From Thermocoleostomius sinensis A174 (lineage in GTDB: Bacteria > Cyanobacteriota > Cyanobacteriia > Elainellales > Elainellaceae), in NCBI RefSeq assembly GCF_026802175.1, contig NZ_CP113797.1:4689026-4753025 (forward strand): a stretch of 64,000 bases of DNA, in the 5' to 3' direction. Positions 55,454 through 63,509 of the stretch are shown here, in pieces (within the stretch, counting starts at the first letter, position 1; every line of letters starts with the position of its first letter). Below the pieces are notes generated by a model. The model worked only from the letters and a program-made list of their open reading frames with translations, was not told where the DNA came from and made no database searches. Both the position numbers and the translations under genes were made by a program.

Positions 55454-56005
55454 CTATTCCAGCAACTCAAATGCGGCTGGAATATAGTGCTGAAGACTGA
55501 GACAACAGCTTGGAAAGCCGATCGGTTGTCCCAGTTGAATGATGATCTCTGAGGGAGAATCTGGAGAAAACCGATCGCAGCGATTTGACTTGGCAAACCG
55601 GGGATGAACTTGAACCAGTGCCACATCAAAGCGGCAGGGAAGATGCATCAGCGGGGGATGCTCTGCCAAAAACAGAGCCGCCGCCTTTCCAAGTTTGGAC
55701 TGCTTTTGCTTTGTAATGGCCGATCGCCCGTTGAGATCCCAACTTTTGCTGCTGCGGGCCTTCACTTCCACAAAGGCGATCGTGGCTTCATTTGCTTGAC
55801 GATGGGGTTGATGGGCCACCAGATCTAACTCTCCCCACCGACAGTGCCAGCGCTGCTGCAAAATTTTCCAACCTTGTTGTTTAAGCCATTGCGCCACAAG
55901 GGCTTCTGCCCATAGTCCTGTCTCACGGGTAGAGGCTTTGGTTGATTGGGTTGAGGATGAGCGCGGCGATCGGGGTTGAGGCGCGGACGGTGGCGGAATA
56001 GTCAC
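55454..56005 (-). CDS. YraN-family (UPF0102) nuclease-like protein
   Basis: A 183-residue UPF0102 protein with a PD-(D/E)XK-type fold. The core reads GLWAEALVAQWLKQQGWKIL, WGELDLVAH, and IAFVEVKARSSKSWD (the E-x-K catalytic pattern), then ITKQKQSKLGKAAALFLAEH. The N-terminal ~25 residues are a Ser/Pro-rich extension. It starts with GTG at 56005. The family is linked with processed or branched DNA, but its function in cells is not established. It lies tail-to-tail with the lipoprotein gene. Confidence 0.87.
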   Translation of the reverse strand: MTIPPPSAPQPRSPRSSSTQSTKASTRETGLWAEALVAQWLKQQGWKILQQRWHCRWGELDLVAHQPHRQANEATIAFVEVKARSSKSWDLNGRSAITKQKQSKLGKAAALFLAEHPPLMHLPCRFDVALVQVHPRFAKSNRCDRFSPDSPSEIIIQLGQPIGFPSCCLSLQHYIPAAFELLE

Positions 56006-56099
56006 AGAAATGCCATCAAAAGACAGTCAAGTAGTAGTATCAGAATAGACATCATTGCGTTGAATCTTATCGTTACGAGTTGCGTTGATTTAGCTCAGT

Positions 56100-56690
56100 A
56101 TGGTTCATCGTCTACCCCTCCTGTTTTGGTACTGGATTGCTGCCCCCGTTGAATTAAGAAGGCATTCCGTTCTGGCGTTCGCGCTCGTTCAGGCTTCCGT
56201 CACAAGTTTTGCAAACTGTCTTATTTGTTTGCTGCTGAGTTTGTCGATCGCAAGTTTGAGCTTTGTGGTAGCTCCGATCGCCCTTGCCGACAATTACAAC
56301 AAAGAATTTTTGGTGGAGGCTGACTTTTCCGGACGAGACCTCACCGACTCTAGCTTCACAAAGGCCAATCTGCGCGGAGCCAATTTGAGTGGTACGAATC
56401 TGCAAGGAGTGAGCTTCTTTGGAGCGAATTTAGAGGCAGCGAATTTGGAAGGGGCAGATCTGCGCAATGCCACGCTAGATGCGGCTCGAATGGTGAATGC
56501 TAATTTGACCAATGCCGTGTTAGAAGGAGCATTTGCGTTCAACACCAAGTTCAACGGTGCCACCATTGATGGTGCAGATTTCACCGATGTACTCTTGCGG
56601 CAAGATATGCAAGATTTGCTCTGTGGTGTGGCTAAGGGGGTAAATCCAGTCACCGGACGGGCAACTCGCGAGACGTTGGAGTGCTATTAA
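56100..56690 (+). CDS. Lumenal/periplasmic pentapeptide-repeat protein, copy 3
   Basis: A 196-residue secreted pentapeptide-repeat protein. The N-terminus is long; the signal helix is LICLLLSLSIASLSFVVAPI ending ALADN. The repeats follow the canonical A(D/N)LxG form ([40 protein letters not shown]). The C-terminus LLCGVAKGVNPVTGRATRET then LEC repeats the paired-Cys end of copies 1 and 2. Regular repeats predict a right-handed quadrilateral beta helix. An ATG without a strong ribosome site begins the frame. Function unknown. Confidence 0.84.
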   Translation: MVHRLPLLFWYWIAAPVELRRHSVLAFALVQASVTSFANCLICLLLSLSIASLSFVVAPIALADNYNKEFLVEADFSGRDLTDSSFTKANLRGANLSGTNLQGVSFFGANLEAANLEGADLRNATLDAARMVNANLTNAVLEGAFAFNTKFNGATIDGADFTDVLLRQDMQDLLCGVAKGVNPVTGRATRETLECY

Positions 56691-56779
56691 GTTGAAATGA
56701 GAAAGCAAGGGCGATCGAATAATCGCCCCTGCGACTAAACCTCGGTCAACTCTAATCAACTCTAATATTTTTCAACAAA

Positions 56780-57430
56780 CTAGCTTCTAGACGTGGAAGC
56801 CGGGATTCCGACCACAGGGCAAGGAAGCGTAAACTTTAGCTTTTGCACCAGTGGATGGCTTGCCGAGTAGCAACCCAGGAATAGCAACGCTGCTCTTTCC
56901 TCAACTACAAAGGCTTCTAGTTCAGTTGCCAGATCGCCAAAGCGCAAGTGCGTTGTAAAAGAGCCACGCCATTCTTCTGCCAAACAGCGGGCCTGCCAGA
57001 GGACACGATCGATTTCTTCAAGGCTGCGACCGGTCGATTGGCAATGTGGTAGGGCCGCAGAACCTCGATCGGCAGTCGTCACGGGGCTAGGTTTTGATTT
57101 TCCACCTAAACGAGCAGAATCTGCGCTGCGCTTCGTCACCCGCCGCTTGTGCGAAGCTTTGGAAGCTGTCAAGCAATCAATCACATAGACAACATGAATC
57201 ATTGCCTGTTGCCGAGTCGCTAGTTGCATTTGATGGGCCACACAGAAGGCCAAGTCAAGCGCGACTTGACTGCGGGGCGAGCCATCATACCCCACCACCA
57301 CCGAGGCAGACGGCAGATCGGTTGTTGGACTAGTGGGTTGTGTCAATCGTGGCAGCAGCAACAGTTGATCCATACGATCGTCGAGATCTAGCGTGCTGTG
57401 TAACCGAGCCAAAGCGGTTTTAACATTCAT
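56780..57430 (-). CDS. Universal stress protein (UspA-type domain)
   Basis: A 216-residue protein starting MNVKTALARLHSTLDLDDRM. The Usp domain starts around residue 43 with ASVVVGYDGSPRSQVALDLA, the usual first strand and helix. The core continues QAMIHVVYVID, and a later EEWRGSFTTHLRFGDLATEL then FVVEERAALLFLGCYS. The ATP-binding GxxGxxxxxxxxG(S/T) motif of nucleotide-binding Usp proteins is not evident: the region reads LFLGCYSASHPLVQKLKF. It may thus be a non-ATP-binding type. The ATG at 57430 is chosen over an upstream start that adds no domain. Function unknown. Confidence 0.78.
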   Translation of the reverse strand: MNVKTALARLHSTLDLDDRMDQLLLLPRLTQPTSPTTDLPSASVVVGYDGSPRSQVALDLAFCVAHQMQLATRQQAMIHVVYVIDCLTASKASHKRRVTKRSADSARLGGKSKPSPVTTADRGSAALPHCQSTGRSLEEIDRVLWQARCLAEEWRGSFTTHLRFGDLATELEAFVVEERAALLFLGCYSASHPLVQKLKFTLPCPVVGIPASTSRS

Positions 57431-57469
57431 AGCTTGAACTCTCTTGTGTGTGTAGGAGCGAAGAAACAA

Positions 57470-57684
57470 ATAGTTGGAAGGTAGGGGTTAGGAATTGGGA
57501 GGTGGTAATGGGTGATGGGTGATGGATAATCGCAAGAGAGCTAACAATGACTCTCTATCACCTATCGCTTGTCTACTTCCTGTTCCCGATTCCTGATTCC
57601 CGACTTCCCATTCCGGATTTCTCATGTCGGACTTGAACACACAGCCCCAACTCTACCGCAGTTCTATGAGAAACCTGTGAGCCA
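57470..57684. other. Intergenic simple-repeat region
   Basis: This spacer contains short head-to-tail copies of GGGTGAT (ATGGGTGATGGGTGATGGAT) and C/T-rich runs such as CCCGATTCCTGATTCCCGAC, a familiar slippage-prone pattern in cyanobacterial spacers. No gene is seen. It separates the Usp gene from the ATPase gene of the ABC operon. Confidence 0.6.
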
Positions 57685-58539
57685 TTAGTCTTCTTGAGCA
57701 AAGTGACGATCGAGAAAATTCAAGGCATGGTTGCGCAGTTCATAGTATTCGGGCAACTCACGCAGTTCTTGAATATTACGAGGGTGAGGAAACGGAACTT
57801 CCAAAATTTCCCCAATGGTTGCAGACGGTCCATTGGTCATGAGAATAATGCGATCGGACATGTACAGCGCCTCATCCACATCATGCGTAATCATCATCAC
57901 GGCTTGACGATGACTTTCCCAAATATCTAGCACTTGTCGTTGCAATTTTCCTCGCGTTAGCGCATCCAATGCTCCGAACGGTTCATCCATCAACAGGAGT
58001 TTCGGACGAGTAGCTAATGCCCTGGCAATGCCCACCCGCTGCTTCATACCACCCGATAGTTCATCAGGATATTTATCGGCAGCCGCCGTGAGATTTACCA
58101 TAGCAATGTGCTCATTGACAATCTGTTTTTTTTCAGCAGCAGAAGCATGATTTAAAACTTCGTCCACTGCCAGGCGAATGTTTTCCCGTACTGTTAACCA
58201 GGGTAGCAGGGCATACTGCTGAAATACCATCATGCGCTCAGATCCTGGTTTATAAATTTCGCGTCCCTCTAGACGCACAGAGCCAGAGGTTGCCTTTTCT
58301 AGGCCGCCAATAATTTTCAGTAAGGTTGACTTCCCGCAACCTGAATGCCCAATCACTGAAATATATTCATCCGGACCGATCGTCAAATCAATACCATCCA
58401 AAACAACTGAGTGCCCACCATCTGGTCGCTTAAACGCTTTGACAAGATTTTCAACTACCAAAAATTCAACCGTCGCCGTCGCCGATTGAGTAGGATAGGG
58501 GCTTTCGTTAGCCGCATAGAAAAACGTTGGTTTAACCAT
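57685..58539 (-). CDS. NitT/TauT-type ABC transporter ATP-binding protein
   Basis: A 284-residue ATPase of the nitrate/bicarbonate/sulfonate class. Motifs are Walker A GHSGCGKSTLLKIIGG, Q-loop MVFQQYALLPWLTVRENI, signature LSGGMKQRVGIARAL, Walker B LLLMDEPFGALDALTR and the switch His in ITHDVDEALYMSDR. The ATG at 58539 follows GGAG closely; the open frame reaches further upstream but overlaps the substrate-binding gene. It is the last gene of a permease-binding protein-ATPase operon on the minus strand. It energises uptake of an anion or small solute. Confidence 0.92.
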   Translation of the reverse strand: MVKPTFFYAANESPYPTQSATATVEFLVVENLVKAFKRPDGGHSVVLDGIDLTIGPDEYISVIGHSGCGKSTLLKIIGGLEKATSGSVRLEGREIYKPGSERMMVFQQYALLPWLTVRENIRLAVDEVLNHASAAEKKQIVNEHIAMVNLTAAADKYPDELSGGMKQRVGIARALATRPKLLLMDEPFGALDALTRGKLQRQVLDIWESHRQAVMMITHDVDEALYMSDRIILMTNGPSATIGEILEVPFPHPRNIQELRELPEYYELRNHALNFLDRHFAQED

Positions 58540-58603
58540 AGTCAACTCCGTTGCTAAAGGATGAGAGGATGAGGGATGACAGGGGAAAGCAAAAGGAAAA
58601 AAT

Positions 58604-60076
58604 TTAAGATGACATGAATAGGCGCGTAGGGGCGTTGGCTCGAATGTTGAAGCTATTGAGGTAACGCACTGGATCGCTGGGGTCAAAGGCATTGCGATCG
58701 ATGAAAGCTTCCGCAGGTTCTACTTTGTAGTCGTCGGCTGGACAGGCAATTCCCATTTCTGTAGCAATTTCGCGATAGAGATCAGTGCGCCAAGCGCGGC
58801 GTGCTTTTTCCTCAGCGTCTTTAGGAAACTCTGAAATTTGCCCCCAGCGAGTCGCCTGCGTCATCAGCCATAGCGATTGCGACTGCCAAAGGAAAGTGGA
58901 ATGATCGCCCGGTATGGTAGCAATGTCCGAGGGCATGTTGAAAAATATCGTAGTATCGTTGGATTGACGTACCCGTGGCTTGTCGTCAAAGCCACCATAG
59001 TTATAGTTGCCAATTAGGGCCGGGCCAGTGAATTTGGTAACGCAGTCGGGCAATGAGCCAATGTTGTCAGGGGTAATTGGGGTGGGTGTTTGGCAGGTTC
59101 TGGGTTTGGCTCCGGTGAACGATCGTGCTGTGATGATTTTGGCCACCTCTTCGCGGTTGGCCGGGTCGCTGCAATATTGACAAGCTTCGATCAGAGCTTT
59201 GACTAGCGATCGATAGGTTTTAGGATTTTGGTCAATAAAATCTTCCATCACCGCCAAAACGCGATCGGGGTGTCCGCGCCAAATCTCCTTGCCTTGAGCA
59301 AAGGTAAAGCCGATCCCTTCGTTGCCCGTGATGGCGCGTGTGTTCCAAGGTTCCGCCACCATATACGCTTGCATATTGCCGATGCGCATATTGCTGACCA
59401 TTTGCGGTGGCGGAAAGATGATGATGCGAAAGGCTTCGATCGGATCAACCCCTACGGCTGCCGCTAGATAACGCACAAAATACTCGTAGATGGCGGAACT
59501 AAGCACCACTGCCCATACCCGGCGCTCTGGCGGCAGTCCTTCAAAGTAGCGGCGAAAATCTTGCCCAAACTGCTCAATGTCGCCATTGTATTCGTACAGC
59601 GGGCGGACTCCCGCTTCCCACATAGCCCGGTTCATGGTCATGGCGTTGCCATGGCGGTGAATGGTCATGGCAGCAGACATTGGCGCATGGCGTGCCCCCT
59701 CGGCTCCAATTCGGGCGTTGGTCACGGCTCCAGATACCACAGGAGAGGCATCGAGGCGACCAAAAATCACACCATCGCGGGACGTAGCCCAACTAGCCTC
59801 ACGGCTCAGCCTGACATTCAAGCCATACTTGCGAAAAAAGCCTTTCTCGTAGGCAATGGCAAACGGAGCACAATCATTCACAGGAACGAAGCCGACAGTC
59901 AAATTCGGTTTTTCCAAAGTGCTGGGATCTATAACGGGTTCGATCGCCAAAGCAGCTTGTGACACGAGTGAATTCTGGGTTTGCCGTCCACCCGTGACGC
60001 CGCACGCTGCCAGCGCAGAGGCCGCTGTAAATCCACCTAACCCATAGAGGAGCGATCGTCGATTGATGAAACTCAT
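58604..60076 (-). CDS. NrtA/CmpA-family ABC substrate-binding protein
   Basis: A 490-residue binding protein. The N-terminus SFINRRSLLYGLGGFTAASA followed by LAACG combines a twin-arginine-like RR motif with a lipobox, so it is probably membrane-tethered outside. The fold is NrtA-like: LTVGFVPVNDCAPFAIAYEK, YGLNVRLSREASWATSRDGV, ASPVVSGAVTN, and VAEPWNTRAITGNEGIGFT. Such proteins bind nitrate, bicarbonate, cyanate or related solutes. This member is longer than classical NrtA/CmpA (about 440 residues), and its ligand is unknown. It sits between the permease and ATPase genes. Confidence 0.9.
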   Translation of the reverse strand: MSFINRRSLLYGLGGFTAASALAACGVTGGRQTQNSLVSQAALAIEPVIDPSTLEKPNLTVGFVPVNDCAPFAIAYEKGFFRKYGLNVRLSREASWATSRDGVIFGRLDASPVVSGAVTNARIGAEGARHAPMSAAMTIHRHGNAMTMNRAMWEAGVRPLYEYNGDIEQFGQDFRRYFEGLPPERRVWAVVLSSAIYEYFVRYLAAAVGVDPIEAFRIIIFPPPQMVSNMRIGNMQAYMVAEPWNTRAITGNEGIGFTFAQGKEIWRGHPDRVLAVMEDFIDQNPKTYRSLVKALIEACQYCSDPANREEVAKIITARSFTGAKPRTCQTPTPITPDNIGSLPDCVTKFTGPALIGNYNYGGFDDKPRVRQSNDTTIFFNMPSDIATIPGDHSTFLWQSQSLWLMTQATRWGQISEFPKDAEEKARRAWRTDLYREIATEMGIACPADDYKVEPAEAFIDRNAFDPSDPVRYLNSFNIRANAPTRLFMSS

Positions 60077-60206
60077 GGATACCTCTTGTAGCGTTGTTGT
60101 GATGCATGAGTAACTGTTTGATGGCGTGAAGGACGCATCAGTCTAGTTATGAAATATTGAAAACTTAGTCAAATTCCTATGCTTTGAACCGCCATAGTGC
60201 AGGACA

Positions 60207-61061
60207 TCAAGCTTGTCTGACCTTGGCCGATCGATGCGTCACCAGTTCTTGCAGCTTGCCGATGAGAAAATCCAGAACCAACCCCGTGCCCCCAATCACC
60301 AAAATGGCTAGGAAGACAGAATTCAAGTTCAAGCGACTCCACTCGTCCCAGACGAAAAATCCAATACCAATTCCCCCCGTCAACATTTCCACCGCTACAA
60401 TCACCAGCCAGGCAATCCCCAAACTGATACGCAGTCCGGTGAAGATATAGGGCAGACTGGCTGGCAAGATAATCTTGGTGATTTGTCGCCACCGGGGCAT
60501 TTCCAACACTCGCGCTACGTCTAAGTAGTCTTTAGAAACACTGGAGACCCCCAATGCGGTATTGATAATTGTGGGCCACAGCGACGTAATGAAAATGACG
60601 AAAATCGCAGACGGGTTTGCCAAGTTAAAAATTGCCAACGCGACTGGCAACCAAGCCACAGGCGATACAGGTCTAAAAATTTGAATAATTGGGTTAATGG
60701 CGAGCATCGCTTTCCTAGACATACCAATGAGTAGCCCGATCGGAATAGCCACCAGTGACCCCAACAGAAACCCCAAAAACACCCGCCGCAAACTTGCCAG
60801 CAGCAACCAACCAATCCCTAAATCCCCCGGCCCACGGCGGTAAAAGGGGTGCAAAATAAAATCTAAATTTGCCGTCAGCGCTTCCCACGGAGTCGGCAGC
60901 AAGTTTGAAAACCATGTGGCAATCCACCAGATGAGAAGTACACCAGCCACTCCCAGTAGCGGAAACAGCACCGCATCTCTAACTAAAGCCGGTTTGAGCG
61001 ATCGACGCCAAACAGCATGTGTCATCAGGACGATCGCCTGAATATTGAATTGCAGCAGCAT
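60207..61061 (-). CDS. NitT/TauT-type ABC transporter permease
   Basis: A 284-residue inner-membrane permease with six helices, similar to NrtB/CmpB/CynB. The EAA-like loop is YLDVARVLEMPRWRQITKII (then LPASLPYI). It also has LLLASLRRVFLGFLLGSLVA and ISLGIAWLVIVAVEMLTGG. The ATG at 61061 has AGGAGG five bases upstream. It is the first gene of the operon: permease, binding protein (130 bases later), ATPase. The riboswitch-like RNA 132 bases upstream probably controls the whole unit. Confidence 0.9.
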   Translation of the reverse strand: MLLQFNIQAIVLMTHAVWRRSLKPALVRDAVLFPLLGVAGVLLIWWIATWFSNLLPTPWEALTANLDFILHPFYRRGPGDLGIGWLLLASLRRVFLGFLLGSLVAIPIGLLIGMSRKAMLAINPIIQIFRPVSPVAWLPVALAIFNLANPSAIFVIFITSLWPTIINTALGVSSVSKDYLDVARVLEMPRWRQITKIILPASLPYIFTGLRISLGIAWLVIVAVEMLTGGIGIGFFVWDEWSRLNLNSVFLAILVIGGTGLVLDFLIGKLQELVTHRSAKVRQA

Positions 61062-61192
61062 CAAGCCCTCCTATGGGTTGAAGTGGTTACGCACAGAGCA
61101 ACACCCCCTGGCAGAACCAGGTGCAAAAAGCGTCACTCTACCAGATCAGAGGACACTGAAGGCCATCAAGCTATAAAAATGCTGTGATATCT

Positions 61193-61431
61193 TCAGTCTC
61201 CTCTCAATGCCGACGGAGTTAGCTGACGGGCTAGGACTGAGAGGTGTCCTTCTGAAGAAGGTTAAAGTATCAAGCCTGAAGGTTAAAGCAGTAAGAGTTA
61301 AACTCAATCTTGCATATCCTTCACCTTTAGCCTTCTCAAGATTCGCCCCAAAAAGAGTGGTTCCTCCGCTCCGGATAGTCTGTTCATTACATCTAGCTTT
61401 GATGACTAGGACTAGTGCCGGATTAGGCTGA
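61193..61431 (-). ncRNA. c-di-AMP (ydaO/yuaA-type) riboswitch
   Basis: On the minus strand the conserved blocks of the ydaO/yuaA aptamer occur in order. TAATCCGG (near 61419-61426) is followed by CCGGAGCGGAGGAACCA (61358-61374), GGGGCGAATC (61340-61349), CCCGTCAGCTAACTCCGT (61213-61230), and GAGAGGAG (61198-61205). TCAG...CTGA closes the ends. The inner variable arm is long and contains CTTTAACCTTC repeats. This class binds cyclic di-AMP and is usually an off-switch. It precedes the ABC operon; a small hairpin (CCTGG/CCAGG, 61107-61121) between them may be part of the expression platform, though no strong T-run follows. Confidence 0.85.
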
Positions 61432-61514
61432 CAAGTTGATTTCTATACACTTTAAACGCTGTAAAACAAGGTTGTCAATCATTCTTATGGCAGACTCATC
61501 AGAGAATACTAATG

Positions 61515-63509
61515 CTATTCATTAGAAGATCTTAATGTAGCATAATACTCTCCGGCCCACGGCAGTTGGGCAATATCTTCTAAAGTAGTCTGGCGCTGTT
61601 GTTGATCTAGTTCAGCAATCCGTTGATTTTCAGCATAGATTTGTTGTTGATAGTACAGAGACAGTTCCGCGTTTTCACGGCAATCGGTCTGTTTCCAAAG
61701 GTCGAGAAAATGTCGCCGCCGTTTTTCGCACATGACCCGTTCGATACTGGCGATCGAGGCTCGAATCACCAATGGGGCCCGCACAATGTCGCGTCTAGTT
61801 TTTTCATCGAGTTGAAATAATTCATAGACGAATGCAGCCTTATCGGGAAACTCGGCACAGTGATCTTGCAGTTGAGAAATTAAATCGAGGGGTTGGGGGC
61901 TAGGGGTTGGGGATTGGGAATTTAGAGCCACTTCTAGTCTCTGATTGCCAATCCTTGACTCCTCAAGGTACAAGATCTGCTGCCACAAAAAGCGGTGGTG
62001 GCTTAAGCTAAAGTCTAGATCACGCTCCTCTAGGGATTCGCGAATTAACAATCGCGTCTCAGGCAGGTGTAAATAGAGCCGCAGCAGTTGCGCTTCTGAT
62101 TCCTCTAACAGCGATCGATCGCCAGGTCGCTGCCATTTTTGCGATCGGCCATGCCATCGCTGTCCGCGTACCTGAGTGCGCAAGTCAGATTCAAGCTGCA
62201 CAGTTAACCGAGCATTGCCCTGACTTAGCAATTCGGCACAGGTGTGAATATAGTGGGTACGCAGAGTGGCGTTCGGTAATTGTCCTAATAGTTGCACAAT
62301 CTCCTGCGTTGCCTGTTGAAACTGATCGGCTTGGCTGAGGTCTGCCTTAAACAAGGTCTGTTGAATTTGCCAATCTAGCCATAGGGGTGCTTGCTCAATC
62401 AGAGCTTGATATTCGTCGGGCGTGTGGATTTTGAGGAACTCGTCGGGGTCTTTACCATCCGGAATATTCAGTACGCGTAGTTGCACTTCACCTTTATAAG
62501 CAAGATCGGCTACTTCACCAATCGCCCGTTCCGCCGCTTTTGTACCGGCTGCATCAGCATCAAAGTTCAGCACCACCTGTTTCGATTCGGTGTAGCGCAA
62601 CAGTTGCCGAACCTGCGCCAAACTGAGAGCGGTTCCCAACGAGGCCACTGCATTAGTAATTCCAGCTGTATGCAGTGCAATGACATCGAAATATCCCTCT
62701 ACCACGATTGCCTGATCTTGCTTAGCGATCGTCGTTCGGGCCTTATCAAGGGCAAACAGGGTTTTGCCCTTATCAAACAATTCAGTTTCGGGCGAGTTGA
62801 GATACTTGGGCTGTTCATCTCCTAGGGCACGACCACCAAACCCAATTACCCGCCCCTGCAAATCGTGAATTGGAATCATCAAGCGATGGCGAAACCGATC
62901 GTAGTAGCCCCGTTCCCCCTGACGCGGAATAATCAGCCCGGCTTGCTCTACTAATTCGACGGGGTAGCGCTTTTGTTCTACCAAATAGCCATACAGCGTT
63001 TGCCAGCCACTCGGAGCATAGCCTAGTTGGAACTGTTGGATGGTTGCGTCAGTCAAATGGCGATCGTTGCGCAAATACAGTAGGGCTTGTTCCCCTTGCG
63101 ATTGGTGCAGCGCATGTTCATAGAAGCGAGCCGTCAGTGCCAGCACTTCGTAAAGCTGTTCGCGTAGCGAAATTTGCCGCTGCAATTCTTGTCGCTGTTG
63201 CGGTTCCAGGGTCTTGACTGGCACTTGATAGCGTTTAGCCAGATCGAGGACAACATCGGCAAACGATCGTTTGTTCAGTTCCATTAAGAATTTAATACCA
63301 TTCCCCCCTGCCCCACAGCTAAAGCAGTAGTAAAACTGTTTGCTGGGGCTGACGCTAAAGCTAGGGGATTTGTCATCATGAAATGGACACAGCCCTACAA
63401 AGTCTTTGCCCTGTTTACGCAACACGATGTGTTCTGAAATTAAATCCACAATATCGACGCGCTGTTTGACGAGATCGATCGTGTCTGGATGAAGGCGAGG
63501 AATGTCCAT
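61515..63509 (-). CDS. dnaG: DNA primase
   Basis: A 664-residue primase that makes RNA primers at the replication fork. The N-terminal CHC2 zinc site is CPFHDDKSPSFSVS with YYCFSCGAGG. The TOPRIM/polymerase core begins FDRFRHRLMIPIHDLQGRVI and includes VVEGYFDVIALHTAG and VLNFDADAAGTKAAERA. The C-terminal ~250 residues form the DnaB-helicase-binding region. A heptamer repeat run inside this last region adds residues reading NSQSPTPSPQPL without breaking the frame. The gene lies alone on the minus strand; 490 bases with little content lie upstream. Confidence 0.95.
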   Translation of the reverse strand: MDIPRLHPDTIDLVKQRVDIVDLISEHIVLRKQGKDFVGLCPFHDDKSPSFSVSPSKQFYYCFSCGAGGNGIKFLMELNKRSFADVVLDLAKRYQVPVKTLEPQQRQELQRQISLREQLYEVLALTARFYEHALHQSQGEQALLYLRNDRHLTDATIQQFQLGYAPSGWQTLYGYLVEQKRYPVELVEQAGLIIPRQGERGYYDRFRHRLMIPIHDLQGRVIGFGGRALGDEQPKYLNSPETELFDKGKTLFALDKARTTIAKQDQAIVVEGYFDVIALHTAGITNAVASLGTALSLAQVRQLLRYTESKQVVLNFDADAAGTKAAERAIGEVADLAYKGEVQLRVLNIPDGKDPDEFLKIHTPDEYQALIEQAPLWLDWQIQQTLFKADLSQADQFQQATQEIVQLLGQLPNATLRTHYIHTCAELLSQGNARLTVQLESDLRTQVRGQRWHGRSQKWQRPGDRSLLEESEAQLLRLYLHLPETRLLIRESLEERDLDFSLSHHRFLWQQILYLEESRIGNQRLEVALNSQSPTPSPQPLDLISQLQDHCAEFPDKAAFVYELFQLDEKTRRDIVRAPLVIRASIASIERVMCEKRRRHFLDLWKQTDCRENAELSLYYQQQIYAENQRIAELDQQQRQTTLEDIAQLPWAGEYYATLRSSNE
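61886..61922 (-). repeat. Heptamer repeat run inside dnaG
   Basis: Read on the minus strand the DNA runs TTCCCAA, TCCCCAA, CCCCTAG, CCCCCAA, CCCCTCG: five degenerate 7-bp units, close to the CCCCAAT-type short tandem repeats common in cyanobacterial spacers. Here the run is within the dnaG coding region, in frame, and codes a Ser/Pro-rich linker. Confidence 0.75.

Follow-up and report, generated by a model that had tools for sequence, protein, structure and literature searches.

A c-di-AMP riboswitch is paired with an Nrt/Cmp-type ABC operon of a separate branch in many cyanobacteria

What does a riboswitch for cyclic di-AMP (c-di-AMP) control when it stands before a transporter operon of the nitrate/bicarbonate type? 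This question is raised by a locus on the minus strand of a 64,000-nucleotide stretch of Thermocoleostomius sinensis A174 (contig NZ_CP113797.1, positions 4,689,026 to 4,753,025), which we call the window and number from its first letter. Here a leader RNA is followed by genes for a permease, a binding protein of the NMT1_2 family, an ATP-binding cassette (ABC) ATPase and then a universal stress protein (USP). An initial annotation had described the leader and the three transporter genes in this order on one strand, had assigned the leader to the c-di-AMP (ydaO/yuaA) riboswitch class, and had proposed a link between c-di-AMP and carbon or nitrogen supply. The gene order and the riboswitch class were borne out by our analysis. 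Overall, we consider it reasonably likely that the RNA is an OFF switch on an anion importer serving ion balance, an estimate that leaves aside the translational step of the switch, which is graded separately below.

A scan with the Rfam model of the class, RF00379, matched positions 61408-61193 of the minus strand at 58.2 bits (E 7.8e-12) over model positions 1-134 of 134, well above the gathering score of 38 bits, and the four conserved blocks quoted in the initial annotation are present in order. This was the single Rfam match at E up to 1 in positions 56000-63500. The window RNA is a typical representative of RF00379. The genome (5.8 Mb, one contig) contains three copies, of which this is one; the second has a CitMHS-type transporter gene downstream and the third a gene for an NfeD-domain protein. 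A predicted diadenylate cyclase domain (PF02457, 133.7 bits) is also encoded in this genome.

The aptamer contains a pseudoknot between the loop strand CCUCUCA (61244-61238) and the 3′ tail strand UGAGAGG (61206-61200), which we take to be a feature of the family. Covariation among 89 distinct sequences supports it. Of the cells in the loop-tail helix, 94.1% are paired, and each of its seven pairs (7 of 7) has varied on either side; when the adjoining helix is included, 95.5% of 1068 cells are paired and 12 of 12 pairs show such two-sided variation. Of 500 shuffles, none scored as high on four of the five measures and one did on the fifth, and slid controls reached 54.2% paired at most.

We then considered how widely riboswitch and operon occur together. 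We searched 292 genomes, a subset of a larger group, which belong to the window's phylum and were taken as Cyanobacteria from the named relatives. RF00379 was found in 75 of these, with 113 listed matches, two of them under the gathering score; the search used strict filters that may lose weak matches. Close relatives of the binding protein are present in 43 genomes (best segment 68–77% identical, the window's own excluded), separated by a gap from the next genomes in the list, at 46% identity or less. A riboswitch lies 943-1262 nt upstream of the close relative, on the same strand, in 38 of the 43. Three of the others are contig-end cases. In G039 the binding protein begins at a contig end, and a riboswitch and permease stand at the end of another contig; G008 is alike though less certain, the 468 nt past its permease holding no binding-protein start; and in G070 the riboswitch is cut by the contig start and scores 35.9 bits, just under the gathering score. 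The last two, G048 and G064, lack the riboswitch. None of seven more distant binding-protein relatives checked in the same way had one upstream. Among named genomes, for which the best 80 of 273 binding-protein relatives were kept (at least two of the 80 records being metagenome bins with the non-cyanobacterial names Gracilibacteria and Tatlockia), 75 of 80 loci have the riboswitch core motif in the 2.6 kb upstream, against four occurrences in the remaining 607 kb of these loci. An Rfam riboswitch was found upstream in all nine named loci tested. The pairing of riboswitch and transporter is old and has been long conserved in many cyanobacteria.

The same survey qualifies the initial description of the variable arm as unusually long. 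At 216 nt, the window aptamer is long against the median of 152 across all 113 matches, but the median among the 41 ABC-operon leaders is 196, and eight of these, the window's included, reach at least 216 nt. For a leader of this operon, such an arm is of normal length.

Two further gene families recur behind the riboswitch. By mechanical open reading frame (ORF) calling, 98 of the 113 matches are followed first by a gene of one of three families: the permease (41), the USP (32) or the CitMHS-type transporter (25). Among the other 15 first genes are those for a P-type cation ATPase and for two Na+/H+ exchangers that carry USP domains (at L102, L106 and L109, in G014, G255 and G066), an ExoD protein and its relative, a glycosyltransferase, the NfeD-domain protein and decayed remains of the ABC operon. 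USP relatives (E 1e-15) occur in 40 of the 292 genomes, all of them among the 75 that carry the riboswitch. Of 55 CitMHS matches, 35 lie no more than 1.3 kb downstream of a riboswitch, four within 5.5 kb, and three just upstream. In the window, the USP gene (57430-56780, minus strand; PF00582; start at 57430 likely) follows the ATPase gene with no riboswitch of its own in the Rfam scan. Four of 20 loci read (L064-L067) display an array of riboswitch, permease, binding protein, ATPase, second riboswitch and USP, with a CitMHS-type gene coming next in L065 and L067. Across the 80 named loci, the genes lying on the same strand as the binding-protein gene include permeases in 79, ATPases in 79, USP-type genes in 50 and CitMHS-type genes in 26. 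None of the 16 families that recur in at least five of these loci was recognized as one of nitrogen, carbon or sulfur assimilation, a judgment made by eye on partial sequences.

Because the recurrent companions are a USP and a CitMHS-type transporter, we favor a role in salt and ion balance rather than nutrient uptake, and read the operon, the USP and the CitMHS gene under the riboswitch as part of an ion-balance regulon. Such neighbors fit the usual role of this riboswitch class in ion and osmotic balance. The proposed link to carbon and nitrogen supply was not upheld: besides these neighbors and the lack of recognized assimilation genes among them, the genome encodes nrtABCD and cmpABCD operons elsewhere, neither with a c-di-AMP riboswitch. 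In Synechocystis, the putative chloride efflux gene slr0753 has been reported as a target of a c-di-AMP riboswitch (PMC10117731), and slr0753 mutations are reported to relieve the chloride requirement of a psbV mutant (PMC9896922). Judging from membership in the CitMHS family, the companion genes are probable orthologs of slr0753.

Several loci seem to contain remnants of the operon. At L108 (G129), two riboswitches lie about 0.9 kb apart: a weak one (29.9 bits), then a 98-residue binding-protein remnant, the second riboswitch and a USP gene; the ABC operon seems to have decayed here. At L128 (G174) the riboswitch precedes an ATPase remnant. At L089 (G005), L137 (G062) and L166 (G280), a short stretch between riboswitch and CitMHS gene resembles, by eye, a permease N-terminus, as if the CitMHS leader arose through loss of ABC genes. 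Elsewhere, a stretch of about 6 kb in L193 (Nodosilinea sp. LEGE 06152) holds three c-di-AMP riboswitches, all on the same strand (5662, 9985 and 11736).

How might the riboswitch act on the operon? We infer an OFF direction, translational control and an anionic substrate, and the scheme we propose is as follows. With no ligand, the aptamer tail at 61203-61193, part of which also serves as the pseudoknot strand, would pair with the predicted anti-tail UCAGUGUCCUC (61159-61149), leaving the ribosome-binding site of the permease open. With ligand, the tail would instead form the pseudoknot with 61244-61238 and free the predicted anti-Shine-Dalgarno strand GUCCUCU (61154-61148). This strand could then cover the Shine-Dalgarno region AGGAGGGC (61072-61065), so that translation would fall. 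High c-di-AMP would in this way lower expression of a dedicated anion-type ABC importer.

In the window, imposing the aptamer on the predicted fold shifts 61154-61148 onto the Shine-Dalgarno region, and the tail hairpin duplex reaches −21.7 kcal/mol, where shuffling the downstream sequences across the 41 ABC leaders gives −10.0 (sd 2.6). The third genomic copy (C1:1460855-1460648, minus strand, within C1:1456000-1462500), which precedes the gene for the 97-residue NfeD-domain protein, has a tail hairpin of similar strength (−19.5 kcal/mol) and looks like a copied leader. Among other leaders, always relative to plain letter shuffles, the hairpin is strong before USP genes (mean −14.9 vs −8.7 kcal/mol, with 13 of 32 beyond 2 sd), weak before ABC operons (mean −12.1 vs −10.0) and unconvincing before CitMHS genes (−10.4 vs −9.8, 1 of 25 beyond 2 sd). 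The case for a translational OFF switch is most direct in G033 and G045, where the permease start codon lies 4 nt past the aptamer. The sole Shine-Dalgarno-like run there, GAGGGGAG, is itself the pseudoknot strand, and ligand binding should therefore hide the ribosome-binding site. The CitMHS leaders of both genomes have GGAAGGAG at the same place.

Thermodynamic proof of a general OFF switch was attempted and failed. Partition functions were calculated for 39 of the 41 leaders with and without rough aptamer constraints (G145 and G278 were excluded for uncertain start codons), and no consistent shift was seen. Longer alternative pairings in Nostocaceae leaders were inspected by eye and dropped.

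Several observations weigh against a regulated ion-balance importer as we describe it. Mean Shine-Dalgarno accessibility in the 39 leaders changed by +0.05 under the constraint, falling by more than 0.1 in two and rising by more than 0.1 in seven, two of these rises being artefacts of pseudoknot masking. The window shows a small change, accessibility going from 0.33 to 0.25 at the Shine-Dalgarno region and from 0.30 to 0.06 at the start codon, and its start region is paired in the free fold too. RNAalifold on 37 leaders (without G033, G045, G145 and G278) gave almost no consensus structure (−1.1 kcal/mol), and the window is the only one of 41 ABC leaders whose tail hairpin lies more than 2 sd beyond its shuffles. 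G048 and G064, which belong to one genus, have kept the ABC operon with no riboswitch match at E 1. Thirteen of the 55 CitMHS matches are near no riboswitch. Finally, in a Synechocystis salt study, Slr0753 was not found in the proteome data, and only sll1864 of three candidate chloride exporters had a raised transcript in salt shock (PMC8670252).

We consider action through transcription termination or RNA turnover less likely than not: the Bacillus thuringiensis kdp riboswitch and B. subtilis ydaO are described as acting by termination (PMC6488665, PMC9960051), and the folding calculations give no general change at the ribosome-binding site, but no terminator-like site was seen on the minus strand at 60950-61700, and G033 and G045 leave no room for a terminator before the start codon. 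Although the folding calculations do not generalize from these two genomes, we judge it moderately likely that the predicted OFF switch acts on translation.

The substrate was approached through the binding protein (gene 60076-58604, minus strand; PF13379, 227 bits), whose N-terminus has an RR pair and a lipobox-like motif. Its binding domain is kin to the NrtA/CmpA superfamily (2i48, 1.1e-49; 2g29, 4.6e-47), and among solved structures it stands closest to the NrtC/CmpC regulatory domains, CmpA and NrtA. The fold follows from this sequence kinship and would not settle the substrate. In an 18-row tree, for which the tool gave a long-branch warning, riboswitch-linked binding proteins fall on one side of a branch with 100/100 support; the other side holds NrtA, CmpA, the NrtC and CmpC domains, and three other NrtA-like proteins. 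As judged from this tree, the protein is a separate branch from both NrtA and CmpA. The initial view that the riboswitch leads an Nrt/Cmp-type ABC operon is retained, but not its assignment to nitrate or bicarbonate supply, given this separate branch and a different set of pocket residues.

In NrtA, the nitrate is reported to be balanced by Lys269 and His196, while CmpA binds its ligand with calcium (PMC8786288); His196 corresponds to CmpA Gln198 (PMC11349869). The window protein has Tyr197 in place of His196/Gln198 and Arg272 in place of Lys269/CmpA Glu270, both invariant in 17 of 17 sequences. Lys269 and Glu270 were placed in the motif HPE[K/E] by counting, and position 270 of CmpA is presumably a functionally important site. 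Trp102, Gln155, Pro222 and Val239 of NrtA, which we assume to be further pocket positions, fall on matching residues. A basic residue without the acidic one of CmpA suggests that the importer would carry a small anion held directly by this pocket residue.

Sulfonates, taurine and other organic osmolytes, whose import c-di-AMP would repress as it represses the osmolyte importers of Firmicutes, are doubtful substrates. Reviews describe cyanobacterial c-di-AMP riboswitches as concerned with osmoprotectant transport and synthesis (Nelson 2013, via PMC4284465 and PMC5986932), and the binding protein matches the SsuA family weakly (28 bits, cut-off 163.5). However, the genome's own NrtA and CmpA score somewhat higher on that model (38 and 46 bits), and the nearest solved structures are those of the Nrt/Cmp group named above.

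A nitrate importer of the NrtABCD type under c-di-AMP control also appears unlikely. The NrtB/CmpB-like permease (gene 61061-60207, minus strand; ORF 60207-61064, ATG at 61061; PF00528) and the ATPase (gene 58539-57685, minus strand; longest ORF 57685-58692, likely start 58539) exceed the NCBIfam cut-offs for ntrB (TIGR01183, 230 bits, cut-off 209.05) and ntrCD (TIGR01184, 360.8 bits, cut-off 291.8), and Arg272 is basic, as is Lys269. Yet TIGR01183 accepts all three permeases of the genome, with NrtB at 351, CmpB at 334.7 and the window permease lowest, so the ntrB label does not identify the substrate. Since these thresholds would label both proteins nitrate genes, they are probably misnamed in genome records. 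Furthermore, the binding proteins of the separate operons match solved NrtA (2g29, 660 bits) and CmpA (768 bits) best, and nrtABCD is preceded by a gene for ferredoxin-nitrite reductase (919 bits, cut-off 594) and followed by one for a molybdenum enzyme taken for nitrate reductase, for which the models shown score below their cut-offs. Apart from its separate binding protein with Tyr for His196, the window operon has a single ATPase of about 284 aa with one ABC domain and no NrtC-type fused regulatory domain. A CmpABCD-like bicarbonate importer tying c-di-AMP to the carbon-concentrating mechanism (CCM) is very improbable despite the family resemblance and the reported rise of CCM genes, BCT1 included, in a Synechocystis dacA mutant (PMC10117731), because Glu270 and Gln198 of CmpA are replaced throughout, cmpABCD lies elsewhere without the riboswitch, and no carbon genes were recognized among the recurrent neighbors.

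We return to a small-anion importer, which would work with the USP and the CitMHS/Slr0753-like anion transporter in ion and turgor balance. A more specific version, in which this third NrtA/CmpA branch is a c-di-AMP-gated importer of chloride or another small monovalent anion and sets cell chloride and turgor with the exporter and the USP, is speculative, and we hold it to be improbable in that exact form. If it were true, chloride supply to photosystem II would also be set in this way in cyanobacteria. The pairing with a putative chloride exporter makes the idea of anion supply testable at once.

According to reviews, c-di-AMP is linked to potassium and osmolytes in Gram-positive bacteria and to night survival, salt and carbon metabolism in cyanobacteria, for which the portions available name few direct gene targets. 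Present in many cyanobacteria, the operon is a candidate for such a direct target, and should its substrate prove to be an inorganic anion, c-di-AMP would balance turgor through anion supply as well as through potassium. No description of the pairing of riboswitch and ABC operon was found in the literature searched, which did not extend to the tables of Nelson 2013; given the osmoprotectant label used in the reviews, earlier tables may list these genes under it. The potentially novel element is the association, shared by many cyanobacteria, of the riboswitch with a separate Nrt/Cmp branch, along with the three-family regulon.

Some surrounding features complete the locus. The riboswitch lies between dnaG (61515-63509, same strand) and the ABC operon. 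Upstream of the aptamer is a weak sigma-70-like promoter match, TTGACA-18-TAAAGT (61478-61449, minus strand), the one site found where 1.1 are expected by chance. This match argues neither for nor against a transcription start downstream of 61193, which the initial annotation had named as grounds for refuting its reading. Further upstream of the operons in G064 and G048 (L080 and L081) is a palindromic element to which two microRNA models match, each short of its gathering score and one of the two in both orientations; it is probably a small mobile element.

Compared with known systems, the window RNA resembles other ydaO/yuaA riboswitches in its full-length match above the gathering score, its conserved core and its loop-tail pseudoknot, and differs in leading an Nrt/Cmp-type ABC operon, with no intrinsic terminator seen and probably translational control. 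The same switch logic has been proposed for Corynebacterium glutamicum nlpC, with reporter evidence for translational control (PMC9960051). As described there, the anti-Shine-Dalgarno strand is paired upstream as long as ligand is absent, and it blocks the ribosome-binding site when ligand is present; the likeness concerns the proposed scheme, and the target is a cell-wall peptidase rather than an ABC importer. The Synechocystis slr0753 riboswitch is of the same class and also cyanobacterial, and the window genome likewise has a riboswitch before a CitMHS-type gene. With NrtABCD and CmpABCD, finally, the operon shares its permease, ATPase and binding-protein families and its nearest solved structures, and it is set apart from them by its branch, its pocket residues, its single unfused ATPase and its riboswitch control.

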